Assembly: GCA_947447225.1 (NCBI GenBank)
Contig: CANFJV010000007.1
Location: 1-36,061 of the forward strand
Direction of reading: 5' to 3'
Length of the DNA: 36,061 nt
Origin: Acidimicrobiaceae bacterium
Lineage (GTDB): Bacteria; Actinomycetota; Acidimicrobiia; Acidimicrobiales; RAAP-2
Shown here: positions 1,464-28,987 of the stretch, piece by piece
How the letters are laid out: each line of letters opens with the position of its first letter
How positions within the stretch are numbered: position 1 is the stretch's first letter
The notes under the pieces: model-generated
The model's input: the letters and a program-made list of their open reading frames with translations, nothing else
The model's database searches: none
What the model was told of the DNA's origin: nothing
Made by a program: the position numbers and the translations under genes

Positions 1464-1624
1464 GACAGGAGCCTACCGGTGGGGGTGCACCAACTTGAGG
1501 CGACTGGCCGAAGAATTCACAAAGAGGTGGAGTAGAGATCTCCCCATGTGGGAGTGGCCGCCGGTAGCATGACCACGCAGTCGTTCGCCAGTTCAATACT
1601 GACGCGAGAGAGGAATTGGCCGGA

Positions 1625-3793
1625 GTGTCACAGCACAGCACAGGGCCAAACTCGCCGCAATCGTTCGAGCCGATTCCTCGAGACCGAGATCAACTCGCCA
1701 CGCTTCGTGACGTCATTCGGGTCTACGAAATGTCGTCTGCGGCGCTGCAAAGCGACGCAGCCCAGCAGCAATTGTTTTCCGGCTCACGGCTCTATCCAAT
1801 GGCCATGCTGGTACTGAAGGTCGCCAACCTCTTTGAGCGCTTCTTGAAGCGAATCCTTCGCCGCCGACCAGCGCTGAAGGACCAAGGTGTGGTGCCACTT
1901 GCGCCAACGGCTTCGGTGGCAATGTCAGCCTCTCCTGTCTTGGCTGCCCAACACCGCTCCCTTCCCGCTCGCATCATGCGAGTGTTTGGCCGCGGCATCG
2001 AAGAATTCGTGGCTGCATGCAAGGTCATTGTGCGAGGTCATCCAAGCGTCGCATCGTCAAATGATGAAGAAAAGACTGTCTACGAGCGCTGGTTTGAGCA
2101 CTACGGCACGTTGAGCGATGTCGGTGAGATCCTGCTTCGTCGCCGCCTGCAGCTCATCGAGGCGCCACCGAAGCTCTCAATTGTGATGGCGACCTACAAC
2201 ACCGATCATAAATTCTTAAAAGAAGCAATTTCCTCGGTGCAAGCCCAGGTCTATGAACACTTCGAACTCTTGATTGCCGATGACTGCTCACCTGATGTAC
2301 AGGTGCGATCGATCGTGTCGTCCTTTGCCAAAAAAGATGCTCGAATTCGCTTGATTGAGCGATCGGTGAACGGTGGAATTTCTGCTGCGACCAATGCGGC
2401 CATTGAGCAGGCAACCGGCGAGTGGATCGTCCTCATGGACCATGACGACACGATTGTTCCTCACGCGCTTGCTCGAGTTGCCTTAGCCATTAGTGAGAAT
2501 CCCGACGCCTCGTTTTTCTATTCCGATGAGGACAAGATTGACGAGCAGGGTCGGCCCTTCACGCCGTATTTCAAGTCGGACTTTGATCCGGTCTTGTTGC
2601 TCGGCCAGAACTACTTGTGTCACCTATCGACGGTCCGAGCGTCACTGGTGCATGACCTTGGTGGGTTGCGCTCAGCCTTTGACGGAGCACAAGATTGGGA
2701 CCTGTTCTTGCGGGTTACCGAAACGCTCCGTCGTGACCAGATTGTCCATATTCCGCACATCTTGTATCACTGGCGGAGTCACGATCAGTCCACCTCAAAG
2801 GCCAGTTCAGCCAAACCCTGGGCACTCGAAGCGGGCACTCGTGCCGTGACCGAGGCCTTGGCCCGTCGTGGAGTTGCCGGGACGATTGAGAACGTCAACA
2901 ACACGGGGTTTTGTCGCATTCGCTACGACTTGCCCGAGAACCCACCGCTCGTGTCGATTCTCATTCCAACGAGAGACGGCAAGTTCCTCGAGACGTGTTT
3001 GCGCTCGGTGCTTTCGAAGACGACCTATCCGCATATGGAAGTTGTGGTCATTGACAACGGTTCGGTGAAAAAAGAAACCGAAGCGTTGTTCGCCGAGCTC
3101 GCCGACAAGGTCGTCGTCGTGCGCGATGACAGCCCCTTTAACTACTCAGCCCTCCATAACCGGGCGGTTCCCTCGTGCAAGGGCGAGGTGCTGGTGCTGT
3201 TGAACGATGACACCGAAGTCATTGATGGCGGTTGGCTGAAAGAAATGGTTGCCCTGCTCTTACAGCCTGGCAATGGCGCGGTTGGGGCGAAGCTCCTCTA
3301 CCCAGATGGGCGCATCCAACATGGCGGTGTGGTCCTTGGGCCACTTGGCCTCGCCGACCACGTTGGAAAACTCGAAGAGCGTTCGAGCGACGGCTATTTC
3401 GGCCGCCACCATCTCCCGGCTGAATTCAGTGCCTGCACGGCAGCGTGTTTGGCCGTGCGTCGCTCGACCTGGGAACGCCTTGGTGGCCTTGAAGAGTTCT
3501 TCCAAGTCGCCTGGAACGATATTGATTTCTGCCTTCGCATTCGTGAGTCGGGTGAGTATGTTGCCTACACCCCGCTCGCTGAGCTCATTCACTATGAATC
3601 GGTCTCACGCGGCCTTGATGAGTCCGGCCCTGCGCTAAAGCGCTTTGCGAAGGAAGTGGTGGAAATGCGTGCTCGTTGGCTTGACCGCATTGTGGTGGAT
3701 CCGTATTACAACCCCAACCTCTCGCTCAACCGCCCATTGTGGGAACCCGCGTATCCACCACGGGTAAGTCCGGGCTACACCGGCATCGAATAG
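1625..3793 (+). CDS. Tandem-domain family 2 glycosyltransferase
   Basis: A protein of about 722 residues with two GT2 (GT-A fold) domains. The first starts near residue 183 (LSIVMATYNT, then IADDCSPD and the metal-binding MDHDDT). The second starts near residue 440 (VSILIPTRDG, VVIDNGS, LNDDTEV, and a C-terminal WNDIDFCLR). The N-terminal 180 residues look helical and have no domain I recognise. This arrangement is typical of bacterial enzymes that add sugars, often rhamnose or related residues, to surface polysaccharides; the substrate cannot be read from sequence. I chose GTG 1625 because GAGAGAGGA at 1606-1614 then lies 10 bases upstream; TTG 1616 in the same frame is too close to it. It overlaps the next glycosyltransferase by one base. 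Confidence 0.88.
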   Translation: MSQHSTGPNSPQSFEPIPRDRDQLATLRDVIRVYEMSSAALQSDAAQQQLFSGSRLYPMAMLVLKVANLFERFLKRILRRRPALKDQGVVPLAPTASVAMSASPVLAAQHRSLPARIMRVFGRGIEEFVAACKVIVRGHPSVASSNDEEKTVYERWFEHYGTLSDVGEILLRRRLQLIEAPPKLSIVMATYNTDHKFLKEAISSVQAQVYEHFELLIADDCSPDVQVRSIVSSFAKKDARIRLIERSVNGGISAATNAAIEQATGEWIVLMDHDDTIVPHALARVALAISENPDASFFYSDEDKIDEQGRPFTPYFKSDFDPVLLLGQNYLCHLSTVRASLVHDLGGLRSAFDGAQDWDLFLRVTETLRRDQIVHIPHILYHWRSHDQSTSKASSAKPWALEAGTRAVTEALARRGVAGTIENVNNTGFCRIRYDLPENPPLVSILIPTRDGKFLETCLRSVLSKTTYPHMEVVVIDNGSVKKETEALFAELADKVVVVRDDSPFNYSALHNRAVPSCKGEVLVLLNDDTEVIDGGWLKEMVALLLQPGNGAVGAKLLYPDGRIQHGGVVLGPLGLADHVGKLEERSSDGYFGRHHLPAEFSACTAACLAVRRSTWERLGGLEEFFQVAWNDIDFCLRIRESGEYVAYTPLAELIHYESVSRGLDESGPALKRFAKEVVEMRARWLDRIVVDPYYNPNLSLNRPLWEPAYPPRVSPGYTGIE

Positions 3794-5445
3794 TGAGCCA
3801 TCACGCCGTGCCGGCGCCGCACGACATCACCGACGACTCGCTTGCTGCCGCTCGGGCCCGCTTTGACGGATTTCGTCTTCAGATTTGGCAGTCGACCAGT
3901 GCACAGCGAGGCCACCCATTTCGCACCAAGGTCATTGCTCTTTTGCCAGTCGGCACACGTCGCTTTGCCGTGTTGTCGCGCACGGGATCACTGGTGTTGC
4001 GACTTTTGAGGAAACTTGGCCTTGAGCGCGACGCACTGCAACGGGTTGACCCTCAGTTCTTCCCAACGGGTTTTCAGTTCACGTCCGTAGTTGCCGGCAA
4101 TGATCCTGGACCCACCGTCTTGACGATCACTGCACCAGAGGATCCAACGTCGTGGGAAGCGGCGAACGGGGCACTTTCTGATCTCGACGTCGTGGTGGTC
4201 AACCTGAGTTCGTCAACATTGCAACCCGGTGGGGCAGCGGCCCTTCGTGACAGGCTCTTGTCAACCGGCGCTTCTGTGGTGACCGGTGATGACGTGATCG
4301 TCGGTGAAGGCGGCCAGGTAACTGGTCGGTTCCGGCCGAAGTATGTCGGTGCAGTGGCACTCCTTAGCTACGACGCCGTTGGCGGAGTCGCCTGTTTTGA
4401 TGGACGAGCACTGCAACAAATTGGTGGCTTTTCCACCACGCTTGGCGCGCTCGGGCTCCACGATGCAGTTGCGCGGTTGGTCAAGGCGGGAGGTGCGACG
4501 GCACATGTGGCACGTGTCGTCGCATCCTCACAGCCACGAACCGAACAAACACACCTTGCCCATGCAGCCTGGACCGTTGCGCACCTGTCCGCACTCGGTC
4601 TGCGCGCCAGTGCGAACGTCACCGCCACCGGAGCGATTGCATGGCGAGTGACACCGGACCTGTGGCCAAGTGTCACCATTGTCATACCCACCCGTGATCG
4701 CTTGGACTTGCTTGAGCGATGCCTCAACGGGGTTGAGCAAAGTTCGTATCCGAACTTCTCGGTCGTGATTTGCGACAACGACTCCGTAGAGCCGGCAACA
4801 CTTCGTTACTTGGACAACACCTCGCACACGGTGGTGAAGACTCCAGGACCGTTCAATTACTCCGCCATTGTGAACGCCGGAGTTGCCGAGACGTCATCGG
4901 ACTATGTCGTGACGCTCAACAACGACGTCGAGATCTCCGACGTTGATTGGCTGGAGCAACTCGTCTCGGTGGCACTGCTTCCCGGCGTTGGCATTGTTGG
5001 TTGTGCACTGCGTGAACCAAGTGGTGCGTACCAACATGAGGGCATCGCTATTGCGCCGTATCCGCAGCACCTCCGCCGCGACCTCAACTACATAAGGGTC
5101 GACGAGTTCTTGACCGCAACTCGTGAAGTGGCGGCGGTGACCGGTGCCTGCACCTTGGTGAAGCGCTCGTTATGGGAAGACCTTCGCGGCCTTGATCCAA
5201 CCCTTGCGGTCATTGGCAATGACGTCGATCTCTGCCTCCGAGCCGCAGTTGCCGCGATGGCGACGGTCTATCTCGCCCAACTTCAACTCACCCATGCGGA
5301 GAGCTCATCGAGGGGATCGCTGAATCCGCCAGAAGACATCTTTTCGCTGGTGGCGAGATGGGGACTGTTCGACGACTACGTCGACCCGTGGTTTCCGGAA
5401 GCCTTGCGCATCGTTGCCGACCAGGTCATCTGGTCGCCTCAGTAA
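3793..5445 (+). CDS. Family 2 glycosyltransferase with degenerate N-terminal half
   Basis: A protein of 550 residues if it starts at GTG 3793, which shares its first base with the TAG stop of the preceding gene (TAGTG), suggesting coupled translation. A longer start at 3739 would overlap that gene by 55 bases. The C-terminal half holds a clear GT2 domain: VTIVIPTRDR near residue 295, VVICDNDS, FNYSAIVNAG, the DXD-like LNNDVEI, and IGNDVDLCLR near the end. It resembles the second domain of the upstream protein. The first roughly 280 residues show only weak alternating strand/helix character and include LSSSTLQ and DDVIVGEGG, possibly a decayed first GT2 domain. It likely works with its neighbour on the same glycan; the sugar and acceptor are unknown. 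Confidence 0.85.
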   Translation: MSHHAVPAPHDITDDSLAAARARFDGFRLQIWQSTSAQRGHPFRTKVIALLPVGTRRFAVLSRTGSLVLRLLRKLGLERDALQRVDPQFFPTGFQFTSVVAGNDPGPTVLTITAPEDPTSWEAANGALSDLDVVVVNLSSSTLQPGGAAALRDRLLSTGASVVTGDDVIVGEGGQVTGRFRPKYVGAVALLSYDAVGGVACFDGRALQQIGGFSTTLGALGLHDAVARLVKAGGATAHVARVVASSQPRTEQTHLAHAAWTVAHLSALGLRASANVTATGAIAWRVTPDLWPSVTIVIPTRDRLDLLERCLNGVEQSSYPNFSVVICDNDSVEPATLRYLDNTSHTVVKTPGPFNYSAIVNAGVAETSSDYVVTLNNDVEISDVDWLEQLVSVALLPGVGIVGCALREPSGAYQHEGIAIAPYPQHLRRDLNYIRVDEFLTATREVAAVTGACTLVKRSLWEDLRGLDPTLAVIGNDVDLCLRAAVAAMATVYLAQLQLTHAESSSRGSLNPPEDIFSLVARWGLFDDYVDPWFPEALRIVADQVIWSPQ

Positions 5446-5600
5446 TGCGGCGGTCGCTCGTAGCGCTCGTTGTTGATCTGTTGGGTCAACTCAGCATTGC
5501 GGTTCATGAGTTGAGCAATACGCGCCTTCAGGTCGACGATTTCGGCGTTGAGCGCTGCAATAACGTCCGTCTCAGAACCCTGTTCGTTCGCTCGTTCCAC
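5439..5600 (-). CDS. Small predicted coiled-coil protein (53 aa)
   Basis: An open frame of 53 codons from GTG 5600 to TGA 5439. Upstream in frame there is a TAG, so this GTG is the only start for the full helix. The core (VIAALNAEIVDLKARIAQL and onward) has heptad spacing of Leu, Ile and Val with charged residues between them, which predicts one amphipathic coiled coil, and the tail is polar (NNERYERPPHY). AGGGTGA lies about 7 bases before the start. The 3' end overlaps the convergent glycosyltransferase by 7 bases. The clean heptad pattern argues that it is coding. I do not recognise a named family; it may be a self-associating or scaffold peptide. Confidence 0.6.
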   Translation of the reverse strand: MERANEQGSETDVIAALNAEIVDLKARIAQLMNRNAELTQQINNERYERPPHY

Positions 5601-5701
5601 GGCGTCACCCTAGGCGCAGGACGCTCATGAATGGAGGTCTGGTAAATTCGGACCACGTCGATGGGAAGTTCTCCATTGCCTGCTAGCCACGGAGGCGAAC
5701 G

Positions 5702-7438
5702 ATGTCGAACACGGTGAAGGTGGCCATTGTCGGCTCCGTCGCGTTGGTCCTCATCGTGGCCCTGTTGCTTCGCCTTCGCTATCACGCCCGTGGCGCCGGC
5801 CGCGTTCGTGCGCACCTTCGTGACGCGAACCCCACCGTTCGAATTTCTGCCCTCCACTCCATTGGTGAACTTGGCCTAGTTGAGTTCATTGATGAACTTC
5901 GCCCGCTGCTCCAGACCGAACACGACCCAGCGGTCCTTGATGCCTTGATGGTCGAGATCTTGCTGTCAAAGACCAGCTCGGTAAGCACGCGCAAGTTGGT
6001 TGAACTCCGCTCATGGGCGGTTGAGCGCCAGAACCGAGTCCATGGCGGTCGGCTCCCTGAGCGAAACATTGCTCCAGTTGGAACCCAAACACCAGTGGCC
6101 ACGGTGGCAATACCTCGAGATGAACAAGGACCACTTTTGACGGCGCCAGTGGAAGCACCCGAGCCACTGGGCATGGAAATTGCCGATGTTGACCTCTGGG
6201 CTCCAACCCCAGAACTTCCTCTCCCCGTGTTCAGCGTTCCCGGTGTCATGAGCGACACGCCAGGTGAAACTCAACACGAACAGCTGGAGCCGCAAGCAGC
6301 GTCAAATGAGAGTTCCTCAAACGACCATTCGAGTTCCGACATTGAACTCGACGACGAACTTGTCATTGTAGAAGTAGCGGAAATGCCCGTTGACCTCGAT
6401 GCCGCTTCAGAGGCGGCGGTTGCACTGAGCGTCGCTATGGAGGAGGCGCAACGCGAGGCCTTCGCCATTGAGGCCTCGGCTCGACGGGAAACTGAAGCAG
6501 TTGCACGAGCGGCCGAACATGAAGCGGAAGCCCTAGCAACGAGCGCTCGATTCGATGCAGAGAACCTAGCCAATGAAGCGGAACTGGTCGCTCGGCAACT
6601 CACGGAAGCTGCGGCAGCAGAGGCCGCCGCTCGACTCGAAGAAGCACATCAACTAGTTGCACAAATGAAGCGTGACGCACAGATCGCTGCAGCCGAGATT
6701 CGTGACGTTGCGCAACGTGATGTCGATCTCAAAGCTGCCCTCGATGCCGTTGCACCAGAGCAACTGCTTGAAGAAGCTGAAGCTGAAGCCGATGCGCTTA
6801 TTGAAGCCGCTCGACTCGCAAGCATGGAACTCGTTGAGCGCTCACGTCAAGAAGCCGAAGCACTTATCACTGAGGCCGCCGCCGAGCGCGAGGAGTTACT
6901 GCAGTCGGCGCAGTCGCAAGTGGCAACCGTTGAACACCACGCCGCGACTGAACGTCGAGCGTTACTTGATGCGACCTATGCGCAGTGCTTGGCGCTCATT
7001 GAACAACTCCCCATTGGGGCAAACCTTTCGGCAGATGACGCCCGGGCACTGCTTGAGTCGTGGCGAAGCGGCGCCGGTGAAGGCATCTCGTCGGCTCAAC
7101 CAAGCGTCTCGGTGCCAAGCGAGAACGCTTCAGGTGTGGGGAGCGACCCAGAACACTTCATAGTGATTGTGAAGTCGCCACGTGAGATCGCGAAAGCTGC
7201 AGCCAAAGCTGAAGCCAAAGCCAAGAAGAAGGCCAAGAAGAAAGCAAAGCGAGCGCGTGAACGAGCGAAAGCGCGGGCGGAGAAAGAGCGTCTCGCAGCG
7301 CTGGCCGAACGGGTAGAAGATGAAACTGCTGCTCGAACTGAGGCTCAGCGTGCTGTCGCAGTATCAGAATCGGTGCTTGGGGTCGAGCCCGTTGGTCGCC
7401 TCTCGATTCCTCGACCAAATGACGAGGAGCCTCGCTAA
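5702..7438 (+). CDS. Membrane-anchored HEAT-like / coiled-coil protein of unknown function
   Basis: A protein of 578 residues; the ATG is preceded by GGAGG at 5691-5695. Residues 5-26 form one membrane helix. Residues about 33-115 look like two or three HEAT-type repeats (PTVRISALHSIGELG, DPAVLDALMVEILL). Residues 115-235 are an acidic, proline- and serine-rich linker. Residues about 235-430 are a long Ala/Glu/Arg coiled coil resembling stalk proteins such as ATP synthase b or DivIVA in composition only. A strongly basic stretch near 500-530 (KAKKKAKKKAKRARERAK) follows. The topology predicts a cytoplasmic rod tethered to the membrane. I recognise no family; cell-envelope organisation or nucleic-acid/phospholipid contact through the Lys tail are only guesses. 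The stop overlaps the convergent SRPBCC gene by 4 bases. Confidence 0.75.
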   Translation: MSNTVKVAIVGSVALVLIVALLLRLRYHARGAGRVRAHLRDANPTVRISALHSIGELGLVEFIDELRPLLQTEHDPAVLDALMVEILLSKTSSVSTRKLVELRSWAVERQNRVHGGRLPERNIAPVGTQTPVATVAIPRDEQGPLLTAPVEAPEPLGMEIADVDLWAPTPELPLPVFSVPGVMSDTPGETQHEQLEPQAASNESSSNDHSSSDIELDDELVIVEVAEMPVDLDAASEAAVALSVAMEEAQREAFAIEASARRETEAVARAAEHEAEALATSARFDAENLANEAELVARQLTEAAAAEAAARLEEAHQLVAQMKRDAQIAAAEIRDVAQRDVDLKAALDAVAPEQLLEEAEAEADALIEAARLASMELVERSRQEAEALITEAAAEREELLQSAQSQVATVEHHAATERRALLDATYAQCLALIEQLPIGANLSADDARALLESWRSGAGEGISSAQPSVSVPSENASGVGSDPEHFIVIVKSPREIAKAAAKAEAKAKKKAKKKAKRARERAKARAEKERLAALAERVEDETAARTEAQRAVAVSESVLGVEPVGRLSIPRPNDEEPR

Positions 7439-7989
7439 ACCCCTGGAGGGATCTCTTCGCTCGGCGCCGTTGCCGTGGTGTTGTTCATTTCGCTTGGAGG
7501 CGCTTCGGCTGCTGCAGCATCGACCTCAAGATTGCGAAGCACTAATTCGCCAAAGCGGTCGAGGTTGCGACGCCACAATGCTTTAAAGATTGGCTTGGCG
7601 AAGGTTCCGGTGATTGTCCCACCGAAGTACCAGGGGAAACTCAGGCGCTCTTCCCAGCGAATGACGCAATGGCGCCCATGGTCACCTCGAACCACAAATC
7701 GGCCCGCACCGGTAATGAGACCTTTGTGATGCACCGTCATTTCTCGTTCTTCAATCCACGACGTGATGGTCATGACGTCATTCGTGCGGAACGGTCCAAT
7801 TTTTGTCTTGCACGTGAACGTCGTGCCAACGCCTTCTCGCTGCTCGTCGTGAAAGGTGATGGAGACGGCGTCTTTCATCCACAGCACGTGGCGATCAAGT
7901 TGACGAAGTTCCGCCCACACTGCACTTCGTGGCGCATGGATCGTGTGGGCAATGCGCACACGAGTGAATCCTCCAGAACCTTTACTCAC
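7435..7989 (-). CDS. SRPBCC (START/Bet v1-like) family protein
   Basis: A protein of 184 residues, GTG start at 7989 with GGAGG 7 bases upstream. The start overlaps the stop of the LLM gene (GTGA), so the two form a coupled operon. The N-terminus VRIAHTIHAPRSAVWAELR followed by LDRHVLWMKDAVS is the typical opening of polyketide-cyclase/dehydrase-like SRPBCC domains, which bind hydrophobic ligands in a deep cavity. FRTNDVMTITSWIEERE and the WEERLSF strand fit the remainder of the fold, and a long C-terminal helix (FAKPIFKALWRRNLDRF) follows. Residues after about 155 are a low-complexity Ala/Glu/Pro tail. Its substrate is unknown; the LLM partner suggests oxidation or binding of a lipid-like or aromatic compound (inference). 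Confidence 0.85.
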   Translation of the reverse strand: MSKGSGGFTRVRIAHTIHAPRSAVWAELRQLDRHVLWMKDAVSITFHDEQREGVGTTFTCKTKIGPFRTNDVMTITSWIEEREMTVHHKGLITGAGRFVVRGDHGRHCVIRWEERLSFPWYFGGTITGTFAKPIFKALWRRNLDRFGELVLRNLEVDAAAAEAPPSEMNNTTATAPSEEIPPGV

Positions 7990-8906
7990 CAGCGAACCTC
8001 CGTTAATGGTTGCAACGTTGAAAAATCTGACAATGGCGGTCCGTCATGAAGGTCGAAGAGGACCTGAATGCAGACATGATCGGCACCCGCAGCGCGGTGC
8101 GCCCCTATTCGCTCAGCAATTTCATCTGGACCGCCGCTTACGACAAGGGCTTCGCCAAGTCGTGCACTGCCGCCACGAATGAAGTCGTCATCGCCGAACC
8201 CAAGGCGCCGCCAATTGTTTTTGTAGTTGTCGAGACCGGTGTACATCTGCAAGTGATCTTTCGTGCGACGAGTGATGACCTCTGGGTCGCGGCTGACGAT
8301 GACTGCTTGCTCGACCGCTAAGAACGCGTTCGCCCCAAGGGCTGCTCGAGCAACCGCGGTGTGCTCAGGGGTCACGAGATACGGGAGCGCTCCACTGGTT
8401 TTGGTTGCGGCAAGATCCAGCATCTTTGGACCAAGTGCTGCGAGCACAACGCGAAGCTCGGTGGCCGACTCCCTCGAGAGATTGAGTGCCTCATTCATTT
8501 GGTCGAGGTAGGTCGCCATGGCGGCAACTGGTGGCCCATAGACGTGCTTTCGCATACCTTCTACTGCTGGACGATGACTGACCCCAAGTCCAGCAATGAA
8601 GCGATCATTCGACATCGCCGACAAGGTCTTGGTCGCCGCCGCAGTTGCGTTGGCATCTCGGGCATAGATCGAAGCAATGCCAGTGGCGACGACGAGTTCG
8701 GTGGTGGCGCTTAACAGTGCGCTTCCCGCGGTGAAGGCTTCTCGGCCGAAGGACTCGGGGTACCAGTAGGAATGGAAACCAAGGCCTTCAACGTCGCCGA
8801 TGTAGCGAGCAACATCTGTTGGGGCAACGAGCTCGTGGGCAAAACTCCACAGGCCAACCGTGCCGCGAAGTTTGTCGAACGGTGATGCGGGGGAAACGGG
8901 TGCCAC
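7986..8906 (-). CDS. LLM-class F420-dependent oxidoreductase (TIGR03620/MSMEG_4141-like)
   Basis: A luciferase-like monooxygenase fold protein of 306 residues. I placed the start at GTG 8906 because GAGGAG lies 6 bases upstream and the conserved domain begins a few residues later (FDKLRGTVGLWSF). An upstream in-frame extension to 9068 has no family similarity and would run into the divergent gene. Diagnostic segments are VEGLGFHSYWYPESFGREAF, TGIASIYARDANATAAA and FIAGLGVSHRP, which I recognise as the MSMEG_4141-type subgroup. Such enzymes use reduced coenzyme F420 (sometimes FMN) for hydride transfer; substrates of this subgroup are unassigned. It is followed without gap by the SRPBCC gene and is divergent from a second LLM gene. 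Confidence 0.87.
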   Translation of the reverse strand: MAPVSPASPFDKLRGTVGLWSFAHELVAPTDVARYIGDVEGLGFHSYWYPESFGREAFTAGSALLSATTELVVATGIASIYARDANATAAATKTLSAMSNDRFIAGLGVSHRPAVEGMRKHVYGPPVAAMATYLDQMNEALNLSRESATELRVVLAALGPKMLDLAATKTSGALPYLVTPEHTAVARAALGANAFLAVEQAVIVSRDPEVITRRTKDHLQMYTGLDNYKNNWRRLGFGDDDFIRGGSARLGEALVVSGGPDEIAERIGAHRAAGADHVCIQVLFDLHDGPPLSDFSTLQPLTEVRW

Positions 8907-10015: not shown

Positions 10016-11250
10016 ACCTCGTGATCTTTGGTGCTTCTGTGTTGGTCGTCTTGGCGGTGGCAACTGCGTATGTACCGCTCCGGAGCGACAAACTCGGCCC
10101 GCAAAGTTTCACCATTGGGTGGTTGACCAGTGAACTTGCTGCACAGTTTGCCTTCGTACTCGCGGTGCTCGCGTGTGCACTTGGCACGACCTCGCTTACT
10201 CATGGTTGGCCAAAGGTGGTTTCGACGATGCTGCTCGTCATCTCCATTGTCGGACTCATTGGTCTTCATGTGAGTGCTAAGCGATCTCTTGACGTCGTGC
10301 GAAGTGGACTCGCCGCGGCTACGAACGCACCGATTGTGTTGACCAACGACCATGTTGCGCCAAAGTACGGACATCTCTTGCAGCGAATCGTGGCGCTTCC
10401 TGTTGGTCGTCGTTCAGTGGAGGTCGTGAAGAACCTCGCGTACGTCGATGATGGCAAGCGATCGCATCGTCTTGATCTCTACCGTTCAACGGCTGCGAGT
10501 GACGACTTACGGCCAGTGCTGCTCTACATCCATGGGGGAGCGTGGGTCATTGGCGACAAGCGAGAACAGGCTCGGCCAATGCTGTATGAGCTGAGTCAGC
10601 GGGGATGGCTCTGTTTGTCCATTAACTACACCCTCAGTCCTCGGGCGACGTGGCCTCAACATGTCGTCGACTGCAAAGCCGCAATTGCGTGGGCCAAGCG
10701 CGAGGTCGCAAACTTCGGCGGCGACCCGAATTTCATCGTGCTTGCCGGCGGATCTGCTGGCGGTCACCTCGCTGCGCTGTGTGCGCTCACGCCCAATGAT
10801 CCGCAGTTTCAACCTGGGTTCGAACAGGAAGACACCACGGTCGATGGCTGCATCTCGTTTTACGGCGTGCTCGAGATGACTGGCGACAAAGCCAGTTCTG
10901 GCATTCATGGTCGGTCGATGATGACCATGCTCGAAAAGACGGTCATGAAGACGTCACAGGCGGAAAATCCCGACGTCTTTGAGGCGGCCTCGCCACTGCA
11001 CCGGATCACGCCGTCAGCCCCGCCATTTTTGGTCTATCAGGGCCGAAATGACACGCTGGTGCCGGTTGAAGTTGCTCGGCAATTTGTTGACCGCTTTCGC
11101 GACGTCACGCAGAGCCAACTTGCTTACGTCGAACTTCCGCTTGCCCAGCATGCCTTTGACATCTTCTCGTCGCCGAGGTGCACTGCCACCACCGCTGGTG
11201 CGGTGGCGTTCTTAGAACACCTGCGAAGTGAGCGAAGCGAAACTGCCTAG
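10012..11250 (+). CDS. Membrane-anchored alpha/beta hydrolase (esterase/lipase family)
   Basis: A protein of 412 residues. Residues 1-90 contain about three hydrophobic segments, so the enzyme is probably anchored in the membrane. The hydrolase domain starts near 145: HGGAW at 174-178 (oxyanion hole, hormone-sensitive-lipase/BD-FAE type), GGSAGG with nucleophile Ser248, Asp347 in GRNDTLVP and His380 in QHAFDIF complete the triad. It resembles actinobacterial alpha/beta hydrolase-fold 3 esterases that cleave short acyl esters. ATG 10012 lies inside the upstream LLM stop (ATGA) with AGGCAGG 6 bases before it. The 3' end shares the tetramer CTAG with the convergent acetoacetate-decarboxylase-like gene. 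Confidence 0.88.
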   Translation: MNLVIFGASVLVVLAVATAYVPLRSDKLGPQSFTIGWLTSELAAQFAFVLAVLACALGTTSLTHGWPKVVSTMLLVISIVGLIGLHVSAKRSLDVVRSGLAAATNAPIVLTNDHVAPKYGHLLQRIVALPVGRRSVEVVKNLAYVDDGKRSHRLDLYRSTAASDDLRPVLLYIHGGAWVIGDKREQARPMLYELSQRGWLCLSINYTLSPRATWPQHVVDCKAAIAWAKREVANFGGDPNFIVLAGGSAGGHLAALCALTPNDPQFQPGFEQEDTTVDGCISFYGVLEMTGDKASSGIHGRSMMTMLEKTVMKTSQAENPDVFEAASPLHRITPSAPPFLVYQGRNDTLVPVEVARQFVDRFRDVTQSQLAYVELPLAQHAFDIFSSPRCTATTAGAVAFLEHLRSERSETA

Positions 11251-12023
11251 TCGTTCGACGGTGGTGTTGGGTCGTCGTAGCGCTGGTGGAGATAGGGGAT
11301 AATCCACTCGGCTGGAACCTTGGAGTGGATGCGGCCCTTTTGAATGGCGTTGCGCATGCCAACCGACACTTCAACGACTCGGCGAATTGGTAGGTCGGCA
11401 ACTGGGTCAACCGGAGACTCTCGAAGGAGAAGTTCACCTTCACAACGCTTTGCCCACTTCGTTGTTTCTTCCCGGGTGCAGTACACGAGCGATGGATCGC
11501 CGTCTAAACCAATGCCATCAGGTGAGGGAAGTGGCTTGAAGTAGAAGTCAGTGCGGGTCTCTGGTGGAGGCGAGGGAATCTCTGACGTGGCGGTTCCATT
11601 GAACTCTGCCCAGGTCACACCCATCCGACCCATGGTGGCATTCACCGTGTCGCCATCAACCGAGACCGTGACGTGGCCAATCTTCTTTGGCTCACCAAAG
11701 GTCTCTCGTCCAGTGATGACCGGACCTTCTGTCGTCATCACCATGACGAGGCAGTAGTAGCCAAGTGTGTCCTCATGGCGACACTGCACGGAAAAGCTGC
11801 CCGCACCAAACGAGCCATAACCAGGAATGTCGACCGACGCAAAGGTGACCTTGACCAGTGGCTGATTACTTGGCGTCAGTGGTCGAGGCAGGACGGCTGC
11901 CACGATCTCAGGATCGGTTTCATACGTCGCCACCACCATGGTTGACCATGCATCGACAGATTTCTTTTGCGCCTGTCGTTCGGCGAGTTGCGCTTCAGTC
12001 TTCGCTGCGTAACGAATTGCCAT
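11247..12023 (-). CDS. Acetoacetate decarboxylase family protein
   Basis: A protein of 258 residues with ATG at 12023 and a strong GAGGGGGAA upstream. The segment GRETFGEPKKIG at 105-116 matches the active-site loop of acetoacetate decarboxylase, in which the paired lysines (here 113 and 114) form and tune the Schiff base. PGYGSFGAG near 68 and CRHEDTLGYYCL near 81-92 align with the conserved beta-cone core. Many family members are not true acetoacetate decarboxylases but catalyse aldol or decarboxylation steps on related keto acids, so the substrate is open. It is divergent from the transporter operon, which could supply or accept a related acid (inference only). Confidence 0.87.
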   Translation of the reverse strand: MAIRYAAKTEAQLAERQAQKKSVDAWSTMVVATYETDPEIVAAVLPRPLTPSNQPLVKVTFASVDIPGYGSFGAGSFSVQCRHEDTLGYYCLVMVMTTEGPVITGRETFGEPKKIGHVTVSVDGDTVNATMGRMGVTWAEFNGTATSEIPSPPPETRTDFYFKPLPSPDGIGLDGDPSLVYCTREETTKWAKRCEGELLLRESPVDPVADLPIRRVVEVSVGMRNAIQKGRIHSKVPAEWIIPYLHQRYDDPTPPSND

Positions 12024-12167
12024 TGTCGTTCCCCCTCGATGGATGCGCCACCAACTTGACGTCCGTGGGCATCGTCACAGGTCTGCGACGTTCCGTCAAT
12101 TGCAGGGGCAAAACACAAGTCAAGAGGTGGCTCTGAATGCTTGCTGAAACCCCAAGTTCGTCAACTG

Positions 12168-12195
12168 TTGCGAAGTGGGTGAGAAGTGATAGAAC
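12168..12195 (+). promoter_or_regulatory. Candidate promoter of the HAAT transporter operon
   Basis: TTGCGA at 12168-12173 and TAGAAC at 12190-12195, spaced by 16 bases, each match four of six consensus positions. Transcription would start about 40 bases before the binding-protein ATG. The AGGGGGGG at 12226-12233 is the ribosome site. The call rests on short motifs only. Confidence 0.3.
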
Positions 12196-12239
12196 AAACA
12201 CACCGCAGAAGTGCGGGGTGACCTCAGGGGGGGTATGAA

Positions 12240-13718
12240 ATGCGAAACACTCGCATGAAGGCAATGGCGGCACTCGCCACGCTGTCGATGACAGCTAGTG
12301 GAGTGATCGTCTCGGTAGGTGGAGCCGCTTCAGCTGCTGCACCGGTCAAGTTCGGAACATTGGCGTCACCTTGTGGCAAAGGCTCTCCATCGGGTTCGCC
12401 CGACACTGGCGTGAGTCCTACATCGGTCAAGATTGGCTACGGCGACGACGCTGGTTACCACGACACCAACTCAGCCATGGGTAAGGCAGTTGCCGCACTC
12501 ATCAAGTGGTGTAACGCTCAAGGTGGCATCAACGGTCGCACCATTGTTGGTGACTACCAAGATGCTGCGATCTTCAACGCCAAGCAAGCGATCGACAACA
12601 TGATCTCGAACCACGACTTCATGGTTGTTGGACAGGGCTACGCCTTTGACAGTGCTGGCGAAGGTGACCGTTTGGCTGCGGACCTTGTCTCGGTTCCAGG
12701 CTTCACCGCTTCGACGGACACCCAAAACGCTTGGGAGATGTACCAAGCGATGCCAAACCCTGCTGACTACAACCCAGCTTCGTCGGCCTATGCCGGCAGC
12801 AAGCTCTTTGGTTCAGCAGCAGTGCAAAAGGCTTGCGCCTTCCGTACTGACGACCTTCCTGGTGGAGCTTCAAAGTCTTCCGACATCAAGGTTGAGTACT
12901 CCTACTCGAAGCAGGGTTGGAAGTGGGGCGATGGATCTGGTGGCGGATTCGGTGGATACAAGACTTCTGCCTCTGACTTCGCCTCTTACGGATGCGACCA
13001 GAACGTGTCGTTCTTGGCCAACATCAGCGCACCAGCAACGATCAACCAGGCTTCGCTCAACTTGAAGAACTCTGGAGCCAAGACCGTTTACTGGGCCGCT
13101 ACGCCAAACGCAACGTTCACGAGCTTCTTGGCTGACAACGCTGCCAACAAGTTCAAGCCATTCATCTTGACCGAGGCGTCGACCTACGACCCAAGCTTGG
13201 CCAAGTGGAACAAGAAGGGCTACGGCGACAACGTCTACACCCGTCTTGGATTCGCTCCACTGGAGTCTGCTTCCGCAGTCCCAGCGGTCAAGCAGTACAT
13301 CGCCTTGGTTGGTGCGTCAAACGCAAGTGCCATTGGTGAGCAAGCTGCATCATCGTTCTTGCTGTGGGCAACTGCGGCTAAGTCCTGTGGCAACACGCTG
13401 ACCCGCCAGTGCATGGTCAACTACCTCGGTAAGTCCTCGAACTTCACTGGTGCAAAGGCATGGACCGGTGGTGGTCTCCAAGGTGGAACGAACCCAGCGA
13501 CCAACATCTCGGCTTCGTGTGGAATTGTCGTTCACTTGAAGGGCACGAAGTGGGTCCAGGCCTACCCAACGAAGCTCGGTACGTTCGACTGCAAGTCGTC
13601 CTACGCACAAGACACCTCAGCAGTGTTGCCGTACCTCCCGAACGGGAACCAGACGGGCATCACGCTGAACAACCGCCACGTGGGCGCCGGCAACTCGGCA
13701 ATCAAGCCACAGGCATAA
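12240..13718 (+). CDS. HAAT-type ABC transporter substrate-binding protein
   Basis: A secreted protein of 492 residues. The first 34 residues are a signal peptide (basic MRNTRMK, hydrophobic core, cleavage near AASAAA). There is no lipobox cysteine, so it is not an obvious lipoprotein. The mature part carries the type I periplasmic-binding fold of the LivJ/LivK/AmiC group: VKIGYGDDAGYHDTN, LIKWCNAQGGINGR (the typical NxxGGINGR motif) and VGQGYAF. Ligands of this group include branched-chain amino acids, amides and urea; the ligand here is unknown. Codon choice is strongly biased (AAG, GGT, AAC, TTC, CCA) relative to its neighbours, suggesting very high expression. A 13-bp stem-loop separates it from the permease. 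Confidence 0.88.
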   Translation: MRNTRMKAMAALATLSMTASGVIVSVGGAASAAAPVKFGTLASPCGKGSPSGSPDTGVSPTSVKIGYGDDAGYHDTNSAMGKAVAALIKWCNAQGGINGRTIVGDYQDAAIFNAKQAIDNMISNHDFMVVGQGYAFDSAGEGDRLAADLVSVPGFTASTDTQNAWEMYQAMPNPADYNPASSAYAGSKLFGSAAVQKACAFRTDDLPGGASKSSDIKVEYSYSKQGWKWGDGSGGGFGGYKTSASDFASYGCDQNVSFLANISAPATINQASLNLKNSGAKTVYWAATPNATFTSFLADNAANKFKPFILTEASTYDPSLAKWNKKGYGDNVYTRLGFAPLESASAVPAVKQYIALVGASNASAIGEQAASSFLLWATAAKSCGNTLTRQCMVNYLGKSSNFTGAKAWTGGGLQGGTNPATNISASCGIVVHLKGTKWVQAYPTKLGTFDCKSSYAQDTSAVLPYLPNGNQTGITLNNRHVGAGNSAIKPQA

Positions 13719-24413: not shown

Positions 24414-24814
24414 GGGAACAGTTCTTTGCGCCTCAACGTACTGAAGAGTACGAGCGAAATTCGCTGAAAGTGCGACGTTGAACCATTGACATTTCGCCGT
24501 TCGCAACGGTAAATAGTGGACCTGTTGCCACCGTAACCCACATTTGTTGCCTTGACTTCGCGAGCAGATATTTTCGAGAAAGAACGAAAACATCGATGCT
24601 TTCTTTACCGTGAAGTGGCGGTCATGGCCGTTCAATTACTGACGTTTCCGTTGACATGGTGGCACTTGCCGATCTCCTCAGTGCGGTGGTGTTGCCATGG
24701 CGTGTGGTCAATGTGTTGGGAGCCATGCCATCTGCGGCGACCTCCGACCTGCACCACCTCGTACATTTCTGATTGACTGACGAGCGATCTCACAGCACGT
24801 GGAGGAGGCGGGAG
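24414..24814 (+). other. Gene-poor intergenic stretch with promoter-like elements
   Basis: About 400 bases with no convincing gene on either strand; short frames here lack ribosome sites and protein-like composition, and the first part is more AT-rich than its surroundings. It holds a consensus TTGACA at 24486-24491 with a weak GTAAAT 17 bases on, and an inverted repeat CCGTT-CGC-AACGG (24497-24509) sits in the spacer. A second inverted repeat TTTTCG/CGAAAA lies at 24571-24590. This probably is a long leader or regulatory region for the secreted protein that follows, or hides a small RNA. Confidence 0.4.
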
Positions 24815-25987
24815 TTGCGGCGGAGACAGCGCAGTGCGTATGTGTTGGGCACGTTGTGTGCCGTGGTCCTTGCCACCCCTGCTGCAGCCACGGTGTCGCC
24901 AACCGTGTTGTCGGCCTATGGCGCTCCTGTGTCAGCAACGATTCCTTCTTCTGTGCTCGGTGGGGCGGTGTCACTCGGCGTTTCGCCCGACGGAGCGACG
25001 CGATACTTCGGCACCTATGGCGGTGGCCTCTATAAGACGGTGGTCGCAACTGGGGCGACCACCACACTTCGCCTTCCGGATTTCAATGGGAACAACATGC
25101 TCGGTCTTGATCTGCGACCTGACGGCAAAGTGCTGTTTGCTGCCGATCAAGCCATTTCCGCTCGTTCGGTCATTTTGACCTCGCTGCTCCCTATTGCTCC
25201 ACCGTCAAACCATGTGATCCCGGCGGCCTTTGCCTTTGACCTCAGCGTGGCACCCGATGGGAAGCACGTAGCTGTCTCTGGCGGGGAAGCGATTGTGGTG
25301 GTGGATCTCGCCAACTTCACGTCGAAAAGAATTTCTTTGCAGCGCACCGTTGAGTCAACGCTTCCAGTTGCAACGCTTTCTTATGGTCCAACTAGTACGC
25401 AGATCTTCTTCACCAACGGTGCTGATCGGGTCGAGAGAATTAGTAGCGACGGAACGGCTCGCACCACGCTCGTGACCGGTCTCAGCGAGCCAAGCCTTGG
25501 AGCGGTTGACAGATTCGGACGTATCTATGTCGGCACCAGCGATACGACAGGACCCCTGACCGGCCAGTTGCTCCGGTTCAATGGTGATGGGTCGGGGCGA
25601 ACGGTGTTGCTTTCGGGTTATGACCAAGTGGATCAAGTGGCACTTGATGCCACCGGGTCGTTGAGTTTCCTGGCCACGAAATATGTTGGCCAATCCGTGT
25701 CAAGGTCGGTCGTTCGATTGCCGCTTCGCAACCTCGCACCACTCACACCAAAAGTCACCGCGGTTGGGCTCGGTCGAGCGGCAATTTCGTTCGCTCGAAC
25801 CTCTGCTGCCCAAACCAGCTTCACCGTGACGTCTTCGACCATGCCGGCACGGTCATGCACCACTACTGGTCTTTCATGCACGGTGACGGGACTCACACAT
25901 GGCCAGCCGGTGTTTTTCACCGTGACGGCAAGTAACGGGTTTCAAAGTTCTCCCAAGTCAACACCCTCACAAACCGTAAAGCCGTAA
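24815..25987 (+). CDS. Secreted beta-propeller-like protein with C-terminal FN3-like domain
   Basis: A protein of 390 residues. I set the start at TTG 24815 because GGAGGAGG at 24801-24808 is 6 bases upstream and the result is a textbook signal peptide (MRRRQRSAY, hydrophobic core, cleavage near TPAAA). An in-frame TTG at 24773 has no ribosome site. The mature part has repeated blade-like units (LGVSPDGATRYFGTYGG, LDLRPDGKVLFAAD, LSVAPDGKHVAVSGG, DATGSLSFLATKY) of the YVTN/SMP-30 propeller kind. The last about 85 residues look like a fibronectin type III domain (FTVTSSTMPARSCTTTG, FFTVTASNGFQ). It is exported; function unknown, possibly binding or adhesion. Confidence 0.75.
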   Translation: MRRRQRSAYVLGTLCAVVLATPAAATVSPTVLSAYGAPVSATIPSSVLGGAVSLGVSPDGATRYFGTYGGGLYKTVVATGATTTLRLPDFNGNNMLGLDLRPDGKVLFAADQAISARSVILTSLLPIAPPSNHVIPAAFAFDLSVAPDGKHVAVSGGEAIVVVDLANFTSKRISLQRTVESTLPVATLSYGPTSTQIFFTNGADRVERISSDGTARTTLVTGLSEPSLGAVDRFGRIYVGTSDTTGPLTGQLLRFNGDGSGRTVLLSGYDQVDQVALDATGSLSFLATKYVGQSVSRSVVRLPLRNLAPLTPKVTAVGLGRAAISFARTSAAQTSFTVTSSTMPARSCTTTGLSCTVTGLTHGQPVFFTVTASNGFQSSPKSTPSQTVKP

Positions 25988-26027: not shown

Positions 26028-28457
26028 ATGGAACTCAGCGCGTTGCCTTCCACCTCGATTGTGCTTGACCACGCACTCGATTCGCGCCCAGCCAAAGAGT
26101 TGCTCTTGGCCCCATTTGACAGCGGCGCGCGTCGTCGCCGTGGAAGTGATGGCGTCCGACTGTTGCTGGCGCTGTTGGGATTCTTCGTACTCGTCATTGC
26201 CGCAAAGGTTGGTTCGCACTTTGAGGTTCGACTTGTAGACCTTTTGACGCCAGTGCCGATTGGCCTGCGCTGGGTGGTGACCGGGCTGTGGTTCTTTGGC
26301 ACGTTCGTAACAACGGCCCTGGTGGCTGGACTCGGCCTTGCTGGCGCTGCTCGAGCAATGCTTCGCGACGGGCTTGTTGCCACTGCGCTGTCGATTCTTG
26401 GTGTCGTTGTTGCACGATGGCTACTTGGTGCGAGTGTGCCTAATGAGCAAAGCGTGATTGACGTCGGCGTCTCGGCCACCTTTCCCGTCATGATGTTGAC
26501 CGCTGCGGTGTCGGCGCAACTCGCGGTCACTCCCTATCTCAGCCGCCCCCTCCAGCGAACCATTCGGACCGTAGTCACCGTGACCGCTCTTGCTGCAGTC
26601 CTCCACGGAACTGCTTTGGCGACGGCGACCGCTGCGTCGATCTTGTTGAGTGTGGCGGCAGTTGCGGCAATGCATCTTTGCGTCGGCTCCCCCCTCGGAT
26701 TGCCGAGTGTGGAGCGAGTCCGCCGGCTGCTTTCAGGAACTGGCGCTGAAGTCGGATCCTTGCAACCCATAGCGAGCAAGCACTGGGGTTCTGTTGAATT
26801 CACTGGCGAGCTCAACGGTGCAGCGGTGCAAGTAAGCGTGTTTGGGCGCGATGCCGCAGAAGCGCAGTGGCTGTCAAAGATCGGTCGCTCATTCGTTTTC
26901 CGTGATTCGGGTCCGAGTTTGGCCGTCTCCTCACTGCAGCAGGTGGAACACGAAGCCCTCGTCACCTTGTTCGCTGCACGAACCATTGGCACCCGAGCTC
27001 CAGTCGTGTTGGCTGCTGGCCAAATTGACGGTGACAGCGTGCTCCTCACGACCCCACCTGCGGGTCAACTGCTGAGTGAACTCGGTGACTCGGTGACGGG
27101 GAACGAAGTCATCGCCAGAAATCTTCTCCAGACAATCGTTGATCTCACCGAGACGACCACCCATGGTTCGCTCAGTCCCACCACTGTGGTGGTGGATCAT
27201 GACTTCTCCGTTGGACTTATTGGATTCTCTCGCGGAACCCTTACGCCAACGAAAGACCGAGCCGATCGAGATGCTGCGGCTGGCCTTGCCCTTGTTGCAC
27301 TGCTGCTCGGAGCAGCGCGCGCGGGGGCTTTGGCTCACGAGATCTATGGAACGGATCGCCTGACGAGGGCGCTTCCTTTCCTCGAGCGAGCGGTTCTGCC
27401 AAAAGATCTCGCCAGCGCGACGAGACGCGAAAAAGGATTCTTGGCCAGCGTGCGAAGTGCAGGTGCGGCCGCTGCTGGCGTTGAGCCTCCAGAGCTCTAT
27501 GAGCCACGGAGAGTCTCATGGGCAAACCTGATCATGGCGCTTGGCACCGTGATTGGTGGCTGGGCACTGCTCGCAGTGTTCGTCAAAGTGGCAAGTTCAT
27601 TTTCGACCCTCAAGTCGGCAAGTTGGGGCTTTGTTGCGCTCACGTTCTTGTTTGCGCAGCTGTGCACCGTTGCGGTTGCGGCGACCACCGTGGGTTCGGT
27701 CATCAAGCCGCTTCCGTTCATTCGAGCGCAACTGTTGGAAATGTCCAATGCCTTTAGCTCGCTTGCTGCGGGCAATGTTGGCGTCCTTGGTACTCGGGTG
27801 CGGTTCTTTCAGCGCCAGGGCTATGACGCCACCATGGCAATTTCTTCTGCCGTTGTTTCCTCGACGGCTTCGTGGATTGCCAAAGGAGCGGCGCTGCTCA
27901 TTGCCCTGCCGTTTGCGCTTGGCGATTTCACGTTCTCGTTGTCGCAAAACACTGGATCATCGACCTCGAAGCTGATCCACATGGCGCTACTTGTCGTTGC
28001 TGGCGTTGGCATTGTTGCCGGACTTGCGCTGTTTGTCCCAAAGCTCCGCCGCCTTGCTGCCTCAAAACTTCGACCAAAACTCGATGAGGCAACGAGTCAT
28101 CTCAAGGTGTTGGCGACTCGGCCGTCGAAGTTGGTACTCATTTTTGGCGGCGCGTTTTTGGCGCAACTCCTCGTGGCCTTTGCGCTTGGGTCAGCACTGC
28201 ATGCCTTTGGTGCCAACTTGCCGTTGGCCGATCTCATTGTTGCACTGACCCTTGGGTCAATGCTCGGTGGGTTGTCGCCGGTTCCTGGTGGCCTTGGTGT
28301 GGTCGAAGCAGGCATGATCCTTGCATTGACGGCTGCGGGAGTTCCTGATGCCATCGCGGTTTCGGCCGTCTTTGTCCAGCGTTTGTTCACCTCATATTTG
28401 CCGCCGGTGTGGGGTTGGTTCACCCTTGTCGCCATGCGACGAAGGGATTTGTTATGA
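26028..28457 (+). CDS. Membrane protein: degenerate kinase-like domain fused to YbhN/MprF-type flippase domain
   Basis: A protein of 809 residues from ATG 26028 (GGGGGAG about 12 bases upstream; GTG 26007 is a weaker option). Several membrane helices lie in residues 35-220. A cytoplasmic domain at about 230-480 follows the kinase pattern of actinobacterial flippase proteins, but HGSLSPTTVVVDHDF near 379-393 replaces the catalytic HxD-type loop Asp with Ser, and the DFG-like site reads GFS (LIGFSRG). Residues about 496-805 form the lysylphosphatidylglycerol synthase/UPF0104 (YbhN, AglD) transmembrane domain with the typical GGLSPVPGGLGVVEAG motif. Known relatives move lipids or lipid-linked sugars across the membrane. 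The downstream phosphatase starts inside its stop codon. Confidence 0.82.
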   Translation: MELSALPSTSIVLDHALDSRPAKELLLAPFDSGARRRRGSDGVRLLLALLGFFVLVIAAKVGSHFEVRLVDLLTPVPIGLRWVVTGLWFFGTFVTTALVAGLGLAGAARAMLRDGLVATALSILGVVVARWLLGASVPNEQSVIDVGVSATFPVMMLTAAVSAQLAVTPYLSRPLQRTIRTVVTVTALAAVLHGTALATATAASILLSVAAVAAMHLCVGSPLGLPSVERVRRLLSGTGAEVGSLQPIASKHWGSVEFTGELNGAAVQVSVFGRDAAEAQWLSKIGRSFVFRDSGPSLAVSSLQQVEHEALVTLFAARTIGTRAPVVLAAGQIDGDSVLLTTPPAGQLLSELGDSVTGNEVIARNLLQTIVDLTETTTHGSLSPTTVVVDHDFSVGLIGFSRGTLTPTKDRADRDAAAGLALVALLLGAARAGALAHEIYGTDRLTRALPFLERAVLPKDLASATRREKGFLASVRSAGAAAAGVEPPELYEPRRVSWANLIMALGTVIGGWALLAVFVKVASSFSTLKSASWGFVALTFLFAQLCTVAVAATTVGSVIKPLPFIRAQLLEMSNAFSSLAAGNVGVLGTRVRFFQRQGYDATMAISSAVVSSTASWIAKGAALLIALPFALGDFTFSLSQNTGSSTSKLIHMALLVVAGVGIVAGLALFVPKLRRLAASKLRPKLDEATSHLKVLATRPSKLVLIFGGAFLAQLLVAFALGSALHAFGANLPLADLIVALTLGSMLGGLSPVPGGLGVVEAGMILALTAAGVPDAIAVSAVFVQRLFTSYLPPVWGWFTLVAMRRRDLL

Positions 28458-28987
28458 CCAAGAGTTCAAAGATCGTGGTGTTATGCACCGGCAACGCCGC
28501 ACGTTCGGTCATGGGTGGCTTCATGCTCGGCTATTTGGCCGACACTCAAGGTGTGAGCGTCGAGTTGATTACCGCAGGCACCCATGCCATTGAGGGTCAA
28601 CCCATGAGTAGCCGGACGAAAAATGCCATTGTGCAGTTCGACGGACTTGACGCGTTGCCGCTCGGCAAGCACCGCAGTCATCAGTTAACTGATGCCGATG
28701 CGCAGTGGGCCGATCTTATTGTTTGCATGGAAGCCGACCACGTTCGTTACGTCCGACGTGTTCACCCAGAAGCGGCAAGTCGCACCGCAACAGTTGGGCA
28801 CCTGACCGAAAACCTGGCCCCCGGAGAGGCGTCACTTCGCGAACGCGTGCTCGAACTTTCCCTCGACGACCATGACCTTGAGTCAACGCCAGAGATTGAT
28901 GATCCTGCTGGTGGTGACCAAGACGTGTACCACGCCTGTGCGGTGCAGCTCATGGAGCACTTGACCGTGTTGATCGAGCGCTGTTAG
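28454..28987 (+). CDS. Low-molecular-weight protein tyrosine phosphatase family protein
   Basis: A protein of 177 residues from ATG 28454 (ATGA overlap with the flippase stop; AAGGG just upstream). VVLCTGNAARS at 8-18 is the phosphate-binding C-x5-R-S loop with nucleophile Cys11 and Arg17. The general acid Asp-Pro is present at 150-151 (IDDPAGG), so the enzyme is probably active. The family includes tyrosine phosphatases that control exopolysaccharide export and thioredoxin-type arsenate reductases. The lack of the usual arsenate-reductase cysteine pair and ars genes favours a phosphatase. Tight coupling to a membrane protein with a kinase-like domain suggests a shared pathway. Confidence 0.85.
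   Translation: MTKSSKIVVLCTGNAARSVMGGFMLGYLADTQGVSVELITAGTHAIEGQPMSSRTKNAIVQFDGLDALPLGKHRSHQLTDADAQWADLIVCMEADHVRYVRRVHPEAASRTATVGHLTENLAPGEASLRERVLELSLDDHDLESTPEIDDPAGGDQDVYHACAVQLMEHLTVLIERC

Follow-up and report, generated by a model that had tools for sequence, protein, structure and literature searches.

What does a membrane protein do that joins an MprF-type lipid-transport domain to what seem to be two inactive enzymes, and why does its gene overlap that of a phosphatase? We call the window the whole stretch of DNA analysed, 36,061 nucleotides of Acidimicrobiaceae contig CANFJV010000007.1. The protein is encoded by a single 809-residue open reading frame (ORF). An ORF for a low-molecular-weight phosphatase (LMW-PTP) follows directly 3′ on the same strand. 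The two genes overlap in an ATGA sequence; the phosphatase ATG starts at 28454 and the fusion TGA stop occupies 28455–28457. An earlier note on this DNA had described a pseudokinase–flippase fusion tightly coupled to the phosphatase. Its coordinates, the HGSLSP and GFS motifs and the stop/start overlap were all correct on re-checking. The features are as follows.

26028–28457, + strand: fusion of pseudo-PAP2, pseudokinase and MprF-type lipid-transport domains, 809 residues (ORF, Pfam, full-length homologs with 87–39% identity)
26118–26711, + strand: putative degenerate PAP2 membrane domain, residues ~31–228 (profile–profile match, motif columns)
26481–26495, + strand: FPVMM where intact relatives have FPSGH (alignment)
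26712–27497, + strand: pseudokinase domain, residues ~229–490, expected to be cytosolic (AlphaFold model, structure alignment)
26835–26837, + strand: S270 at the β3 Lys position (alignment with intact relatives)
26952–26954, + strand: E309, retained at the αC Glu position (nearly invariant in 36 homologs)
27162–27185, + strand: HGSLSPTT replacing HRDLRRAN, with S381 for the catalytic Asp and T386 for the Asn (alignment)
27222–27230, + strand: GFS (399–401) replacing DFG (alignment)
27510–28454, + strand: MprF/UPF0104-type lipid-transport domain, residues 495–809 (PF03706, structure alignment to MprF)
28454–28987, + strand: LMW-PTP-like phosphatase, 177 residues, with a C11TGNAARS P-loop (C-X5-R) and a D150-P motif (ORF, Pfam, motifs)

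Just upstream of the fusion, at 24773–25987 (+), lies a gene whose 404-residue product matches nothing in Pfam. Homologs of this protein also adjoin the fusion elsewhere, upstream in L003 and downstream in L004 and L005.

Domains of the fusion protein

The transport domain is the sole Pfam match on the fusion protein. PF03706 (LPG_synthase_TM) matches residues 504–796 with 73.8 bits (cut-off 33.4) and the match covers model positions 2–302 of 302, that is, the full length. In a VIA alignment of the AlphaFold model, residues 495–809 align with P. aeruginosa MprF (9j8s) with a Z score of 20.8 over 259 residues at 4.1 Å. Together, these two matches bear out the YbhN/MprF-type lipid-transport domain proposed earlier. 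The chain stops after the TM domain and has no C-terminal synthase domain. It scores 38.1 bits against the NCBIfam MprF equivalog model (cut-off 600), which places it outside the bifunctional MprF proteins. The P. aeruginosa MprF domain is a promiscuous, energy-independent scramblase, and its preference is thought to be set by the fused enzyme (PMC11980842).

The kinase-like domain was modelled with AlphaFold, the input being the window protein plus seven relatives. Residues ~230–490 form a two-lobed kinase fold with the strand–helix order of kinases. Block means are mostly 73–91 pLDDT, with a weak stretch at ~274–300. Ranked by E-value, Foldseek put eukaryotic kinases on top with poor rmsd and VIA alignment was used instead. 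This aligned the domain with human PRPK (Z 14.0), Archaeoglobus Rio1 (13.8–13.9), the lanthipeptide kinase CurKC (13.4) and Bud32 (12.9). The kinase fold that the earlier note placed at residues 230–480 is thus present. No direct kinase match to the window protein was found in Pfam or NCBIfam. Two relatives, L031 (36.3 bits) and L181 (35.2 bits), exceed the Pkinase cut-off of 31.7, and a profile of 36 homologs matches PDB kinases, WbdD and Rio2 included.

Compared with the VKV, HRDLRRAN and DFG motifs of intact relatives, four catalytic positions are replaced: the β3 Lys (S270), the HRD Asp (S381), the loop Asn (T386) and the DFG Asp (G399). Hence, the window protein has none of the four residues expected of an active protein kinase. 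The αC Glu (E309), the loop His (H379) and Asp D415 of the F-helix segment persist, each in at least 90% of the 36 homologs. Judged from sequence, this division between kept and lost residues is the usual pseudokinase pattern. The pseudokinase–flippase fusion is therefore real; the losses of catalytic-loop Asp and DFG Asp were already noted, and those of the β3 Lys and loop Asn can be added.

The N-terminal membrane helices had also been recognised, but their PAP2 identity and the existence of intact triple-fusion relatives were overlooked. Residues ~31–228 have the profile of a degenerate PAP2 lipid-phosphatase domain. The assignment rests on sequence profiles because the domain, modelled alone, reached a pLDDT of 45, too poor for a fold search. 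Briefly, 12 proteins of the window's clade were compared, profile to profile, with nine PAP2-intact relatives; they match over 197 columns with a probability of 99.5% (E 3e-22). Pfam gives no direct PAP2 match on the window protein. The cut-off of 27.2 is exceeded by relatives L023 (58.4 bits), L031 (51.4), L038 (61.7), L178, L179, L180 (71.5) and L181. PAP2-matching relatives carry the motifs KX6RP, PSGH and RX5HX3D, the first motif residue being relaxed in some. In the window protein the six PAP2 catalytic residues checked are all replaced (R130, V137, M156, A190, A196 and A200) and PSGH reads PVMM. Given the PAP2 homology and these motif losses, we regard the window protein as a triple fusion with two dead enzymes.

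Intact relatives and selection on the inactive domains

Seven distant actinobacterial relatives have a complete PAP2 domain, complete kinase motifs and an MprF domain in one chain. Hence, the window protein appears to descend from a triple fusion, with both enzymes now dead. We placed 84 homologs in a tree using the kinase and transport domains. The sample was gathered with two queries, the window protein and one intact relative; because it was query-driven, the following counts give no estimate of frequency. All ten catalytic residues (four kinase, six PAP2) are kept by seven of the 84 members and none of the ten by the window protein. The seven group in one 12-member subclade, and four further members keep the kinase residues but not the PAP2 residues. 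No PAP2-intact and no kinase-intact member occurs among the 50 proteins of the remaining half of the tree, to which the window protein belongs. Searches of genomes found homologs in 99 of 395 from the class (E 1e-20) and 37 of 296 from the phylum (E 1e-30).

Several features of individual genomes were also recorded. Three to five fusion matches occur per genome in several cases. L097 has two fusion paralogs, at 4896–7331 (+) and 10659–13184 (−), ~3 kb apart on opposite strands. In L178, an intact triple fusion at 4094–8400 (+) adjoins an ftsH-like protease gene with an overlapping start. The neighbours of intact members have no common theme, and include FtsH, the DNA polymerase III delta subunit family, thymidylate kinase/MFS, a chromate transporter and EamA. 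A gene of L084 at 753–2453 (+) lies close to a complete triple fusion; its product, 567 residues long, shows PAP2-like and kinase-like matches and none to PF03706. Going by this example, phosphatase–kinase pairs may also exist without the transporter. The L009 contig is labelled Streptosporangiaceae and its member groups within the clade formed by the window's family, which suggests a misassigned genome or transfer. Rv0585c of M. tuberculosis was considered as a candidate member of the family; its membership is not established in the literature found.

Selection was assessed from dN/dS for each domain. Between the window protein and L003 the ratios are 0.075 (PAP2-like), 0.067 (kinase) and 0.025 (transporter), values that are rough because synonymous sites are near saturation (dS 1.6–2.3). 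For L004 and L005 they are 0.055, 0.046 and 0.045, respectively. Hence, the dead domains are under strong purifying selection, with dN/dS of ~0.05–0.075, and both are probably regulatory or structural.

A purely structural role is one interpretation. The protein would then be an ordinary MprF/YbhN-type transporter, with the N-terminal and kinase parts a leftover scaffold that aids folding or assembly only. Of three pairs compared, two show slower evolution in the transporter than in either of the dead domains, and a structural role would also explain the faster variation of the latter. The lack of any PAP2-intact member in the 50-member half of the tree also fits, as does a free-standing PF03706 protein encoded in the same genome. 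However, dN/dS is low in both dead domains and E309, H379 and D415 are kept, so the fold itself is selected. We consider a mere scaffold possible but somewhat unlikely.

Linkage of the phosphatase to the fusion

The second protein has an LMWPc match of 60.6 bits in Pfam. It carries the P-loop CTGNAARS at 11–18, in agreement with C-X5-R-S/T, and DDPAGG at 149, which supplies the Asp-Pro general acid. Since both motifs are kept, the phosphatase is probably active. It belongs to a subfamily with the signature CTGNAARSVM in place of CTGNxCRSP.

Conserved adjacency of the two genes was expected if they form one system. We surveyed 61 genomes from the window's family and found the fusion in 27. Assigned by coordinates, the phosphatase gene lies immediately downstream of the fusion in 13 of these and ~2 kb from it in 2; in 10 others the two genes are unlinked, and the last 2 have no such phosphatase gene. 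Immediate linkage spans six genera and ~39–87% protein identity, and ATGA, GTGA or TAATG overlaps occur in the window (W), L003, L006, L007, L008 and L012. This linkage is above chance but not independent of descent. Within flanks of 1.5–5 kb, none was found outside the window's clade. The phosphatase occurs without the fusion in 27 of the 61 family genomes, and presence of the two genes is not significantly associated across the 61 (Fisher p 0.28). Hence, the tight coupling and adjacency previously proposed hold in part: they are real and cross genera, but are limited to a lineage, with many fusions unlinked and many phosphatases alone.

These data bear on whether flippase and phosphatase work as a single signalling unit. 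The target of the phosphatase would then be the flippase itself or a partner that the pseudokinase reads. The immediate downstream position and the start/stop overlaps are what such a unit would show. Set against this are the unlinked and missing phosphatases, the genomes with a phosphatase and no fusion, and the occurrence of the subfamily in 56 of 148 genomes of the order, several times beside or near an acyl-CoA dehydrogenase gene. Hence, we think a dedicated signalling unit unlikely.

In L133, L134, L141 and L144, which lack the fusion, the phosphatase gene is beside or near that for acyl-CoA dehydrogenase, and cysS or valS is also nearby. The CTGNAARSVM-type phosphatase may have a function of its own tied to this context. 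In the simplest history, the fusion gene would have inserted between the genes for the dehydrogenase and the phosphatase.

Possible functions and known systems

We propose that the family comprises actinobacterial three-module membrane proteins, with an N-terminal PAP2 domain, a Rio/Bud32-like kinase and a C-terminal MprF-type scramblase/flippase. The known topologies of PAP2 proteins and MprF suggest, by analogy, that the PAP2-like site would lie at the outer face, with the kinase in the cytosol. In intact members, a lipid could be dephosphorylated at the outer face, moved across the bilayer and rephosphorylated inside. In the window protein, the two pseudoenzyme domains would set the activity of a lipid transporter, or access of its substrate. 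They might do so by binding a lipid headgroup, nucleotide or partner without chemistry. As for the co-translated LMW-PTP, its substrate may be a phosphoprotein partner, or it may merely share the operon.

Since both enzyme modules are dead yet conserved, the window protein is most likely a regulated lipid transporter. Specifically, we favour, at slightly better than even confidence, a lipid scramblase/flippase of the MprF type under the control of two pseudoenzyme domains; its substrate and the control are what we infer. The earlier proposal of a phosphorylation- or lipid-phosphate-regulated transport module thus retains its fusion, while the phosphatase link is weaker than claimed. A broader reading is tentative. 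Triple fusions would be widespread in Actinobacteria and apparently undescribed, the intact forms running a lipid-phosphate cycle on one polypeptide and the large derived branch using pseudoenzyme sensors to gate scrambling.

The protein could instead still serve recycling of polyprenyl-phosphate or phospholipid carriers, partnering separate kinases and phosphatases without being a catalyst itself. Intact relatives do join PAP2, kinase and transporter, and the intact PAP2 domain of L181 resembles LpxE by sequence (PDB 6ebu, E 2e-6). However, no conserved cell-wall or isoprenoid gene neighbours were seen in the neighbourhoods examined, and we find this role doubtful. Activity of the kinase domain by an atypical mechanism, such as SelO-type AMPylation or that of other non-canonical kinases, is very improbable: the fold is intact and L071 and L015 keep partial kinase motifs (D, N and D), but the window protein has jointly lost the β3 Lys, HRD Asp, loop Asn and DFG Asp, and so has no obvious metal or nucleotide ligands left.

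A regulated transporter, our preferred reading, bears on how passive MprF-type scramblases are controlled: here one is joined in a single chain to a phosphatase and a kinase. The large lineage in which both enzymes lost catalysis yet are conserved amounts to a natural experiment in how pseudoenzymes regulate. From the intact relatives comes a prediction open to direct test, namely a lipid-phosphate recycling cycle in one protein. We found no description of a PAP2–kinase–MprF fusion, intact or dead, in the literature searched, coverage of which was partial (few subscription journals). Each single domain is already known; it is the combination that was not found described.

Comparison with known systems places each part. 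The kinase fold is like those of Rio/Bud32 (PRPK) and lanthipeptide-synthetase kinases (Z 13–14). Those kinases are known to retain their catalytic residues, whereas the window domain has lost four. PAP2 phosphatases of the LpxE/PgpB type are matched by the intact relatives; in the corresponding window domain every catalytic residue checked is missing. With Wzb and YwlE, the window phosphatase shares the C-X5-R P-loop and Asp-Pro motif of LMW-PTPs, but it has CTGNAARSVM, not CTGNxCRSP, and is ~30 residues longer. UPF0104/YbhN/AglD proteins have the same transport domain, some of them with a lipid- or sugar-modifying enzyme attached (PMC5898192). For AglD, a glycosyltransferase is the partner reported, whereas that in the window protein is a PAP2–kinase unit. 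MprF, a lysyl-/alanyl-PG synthase joined to a flippase/scramblase, has a transport domain homologous to that of the window protein (PF03706; Z 20.8 across 259 aligned residues). Unlike MprF, the window protein lacks a C-terminal aminoacyl-transferase and has instead, at its N-terminal side, an apparently dead PAP2 domain and a dead kinase.
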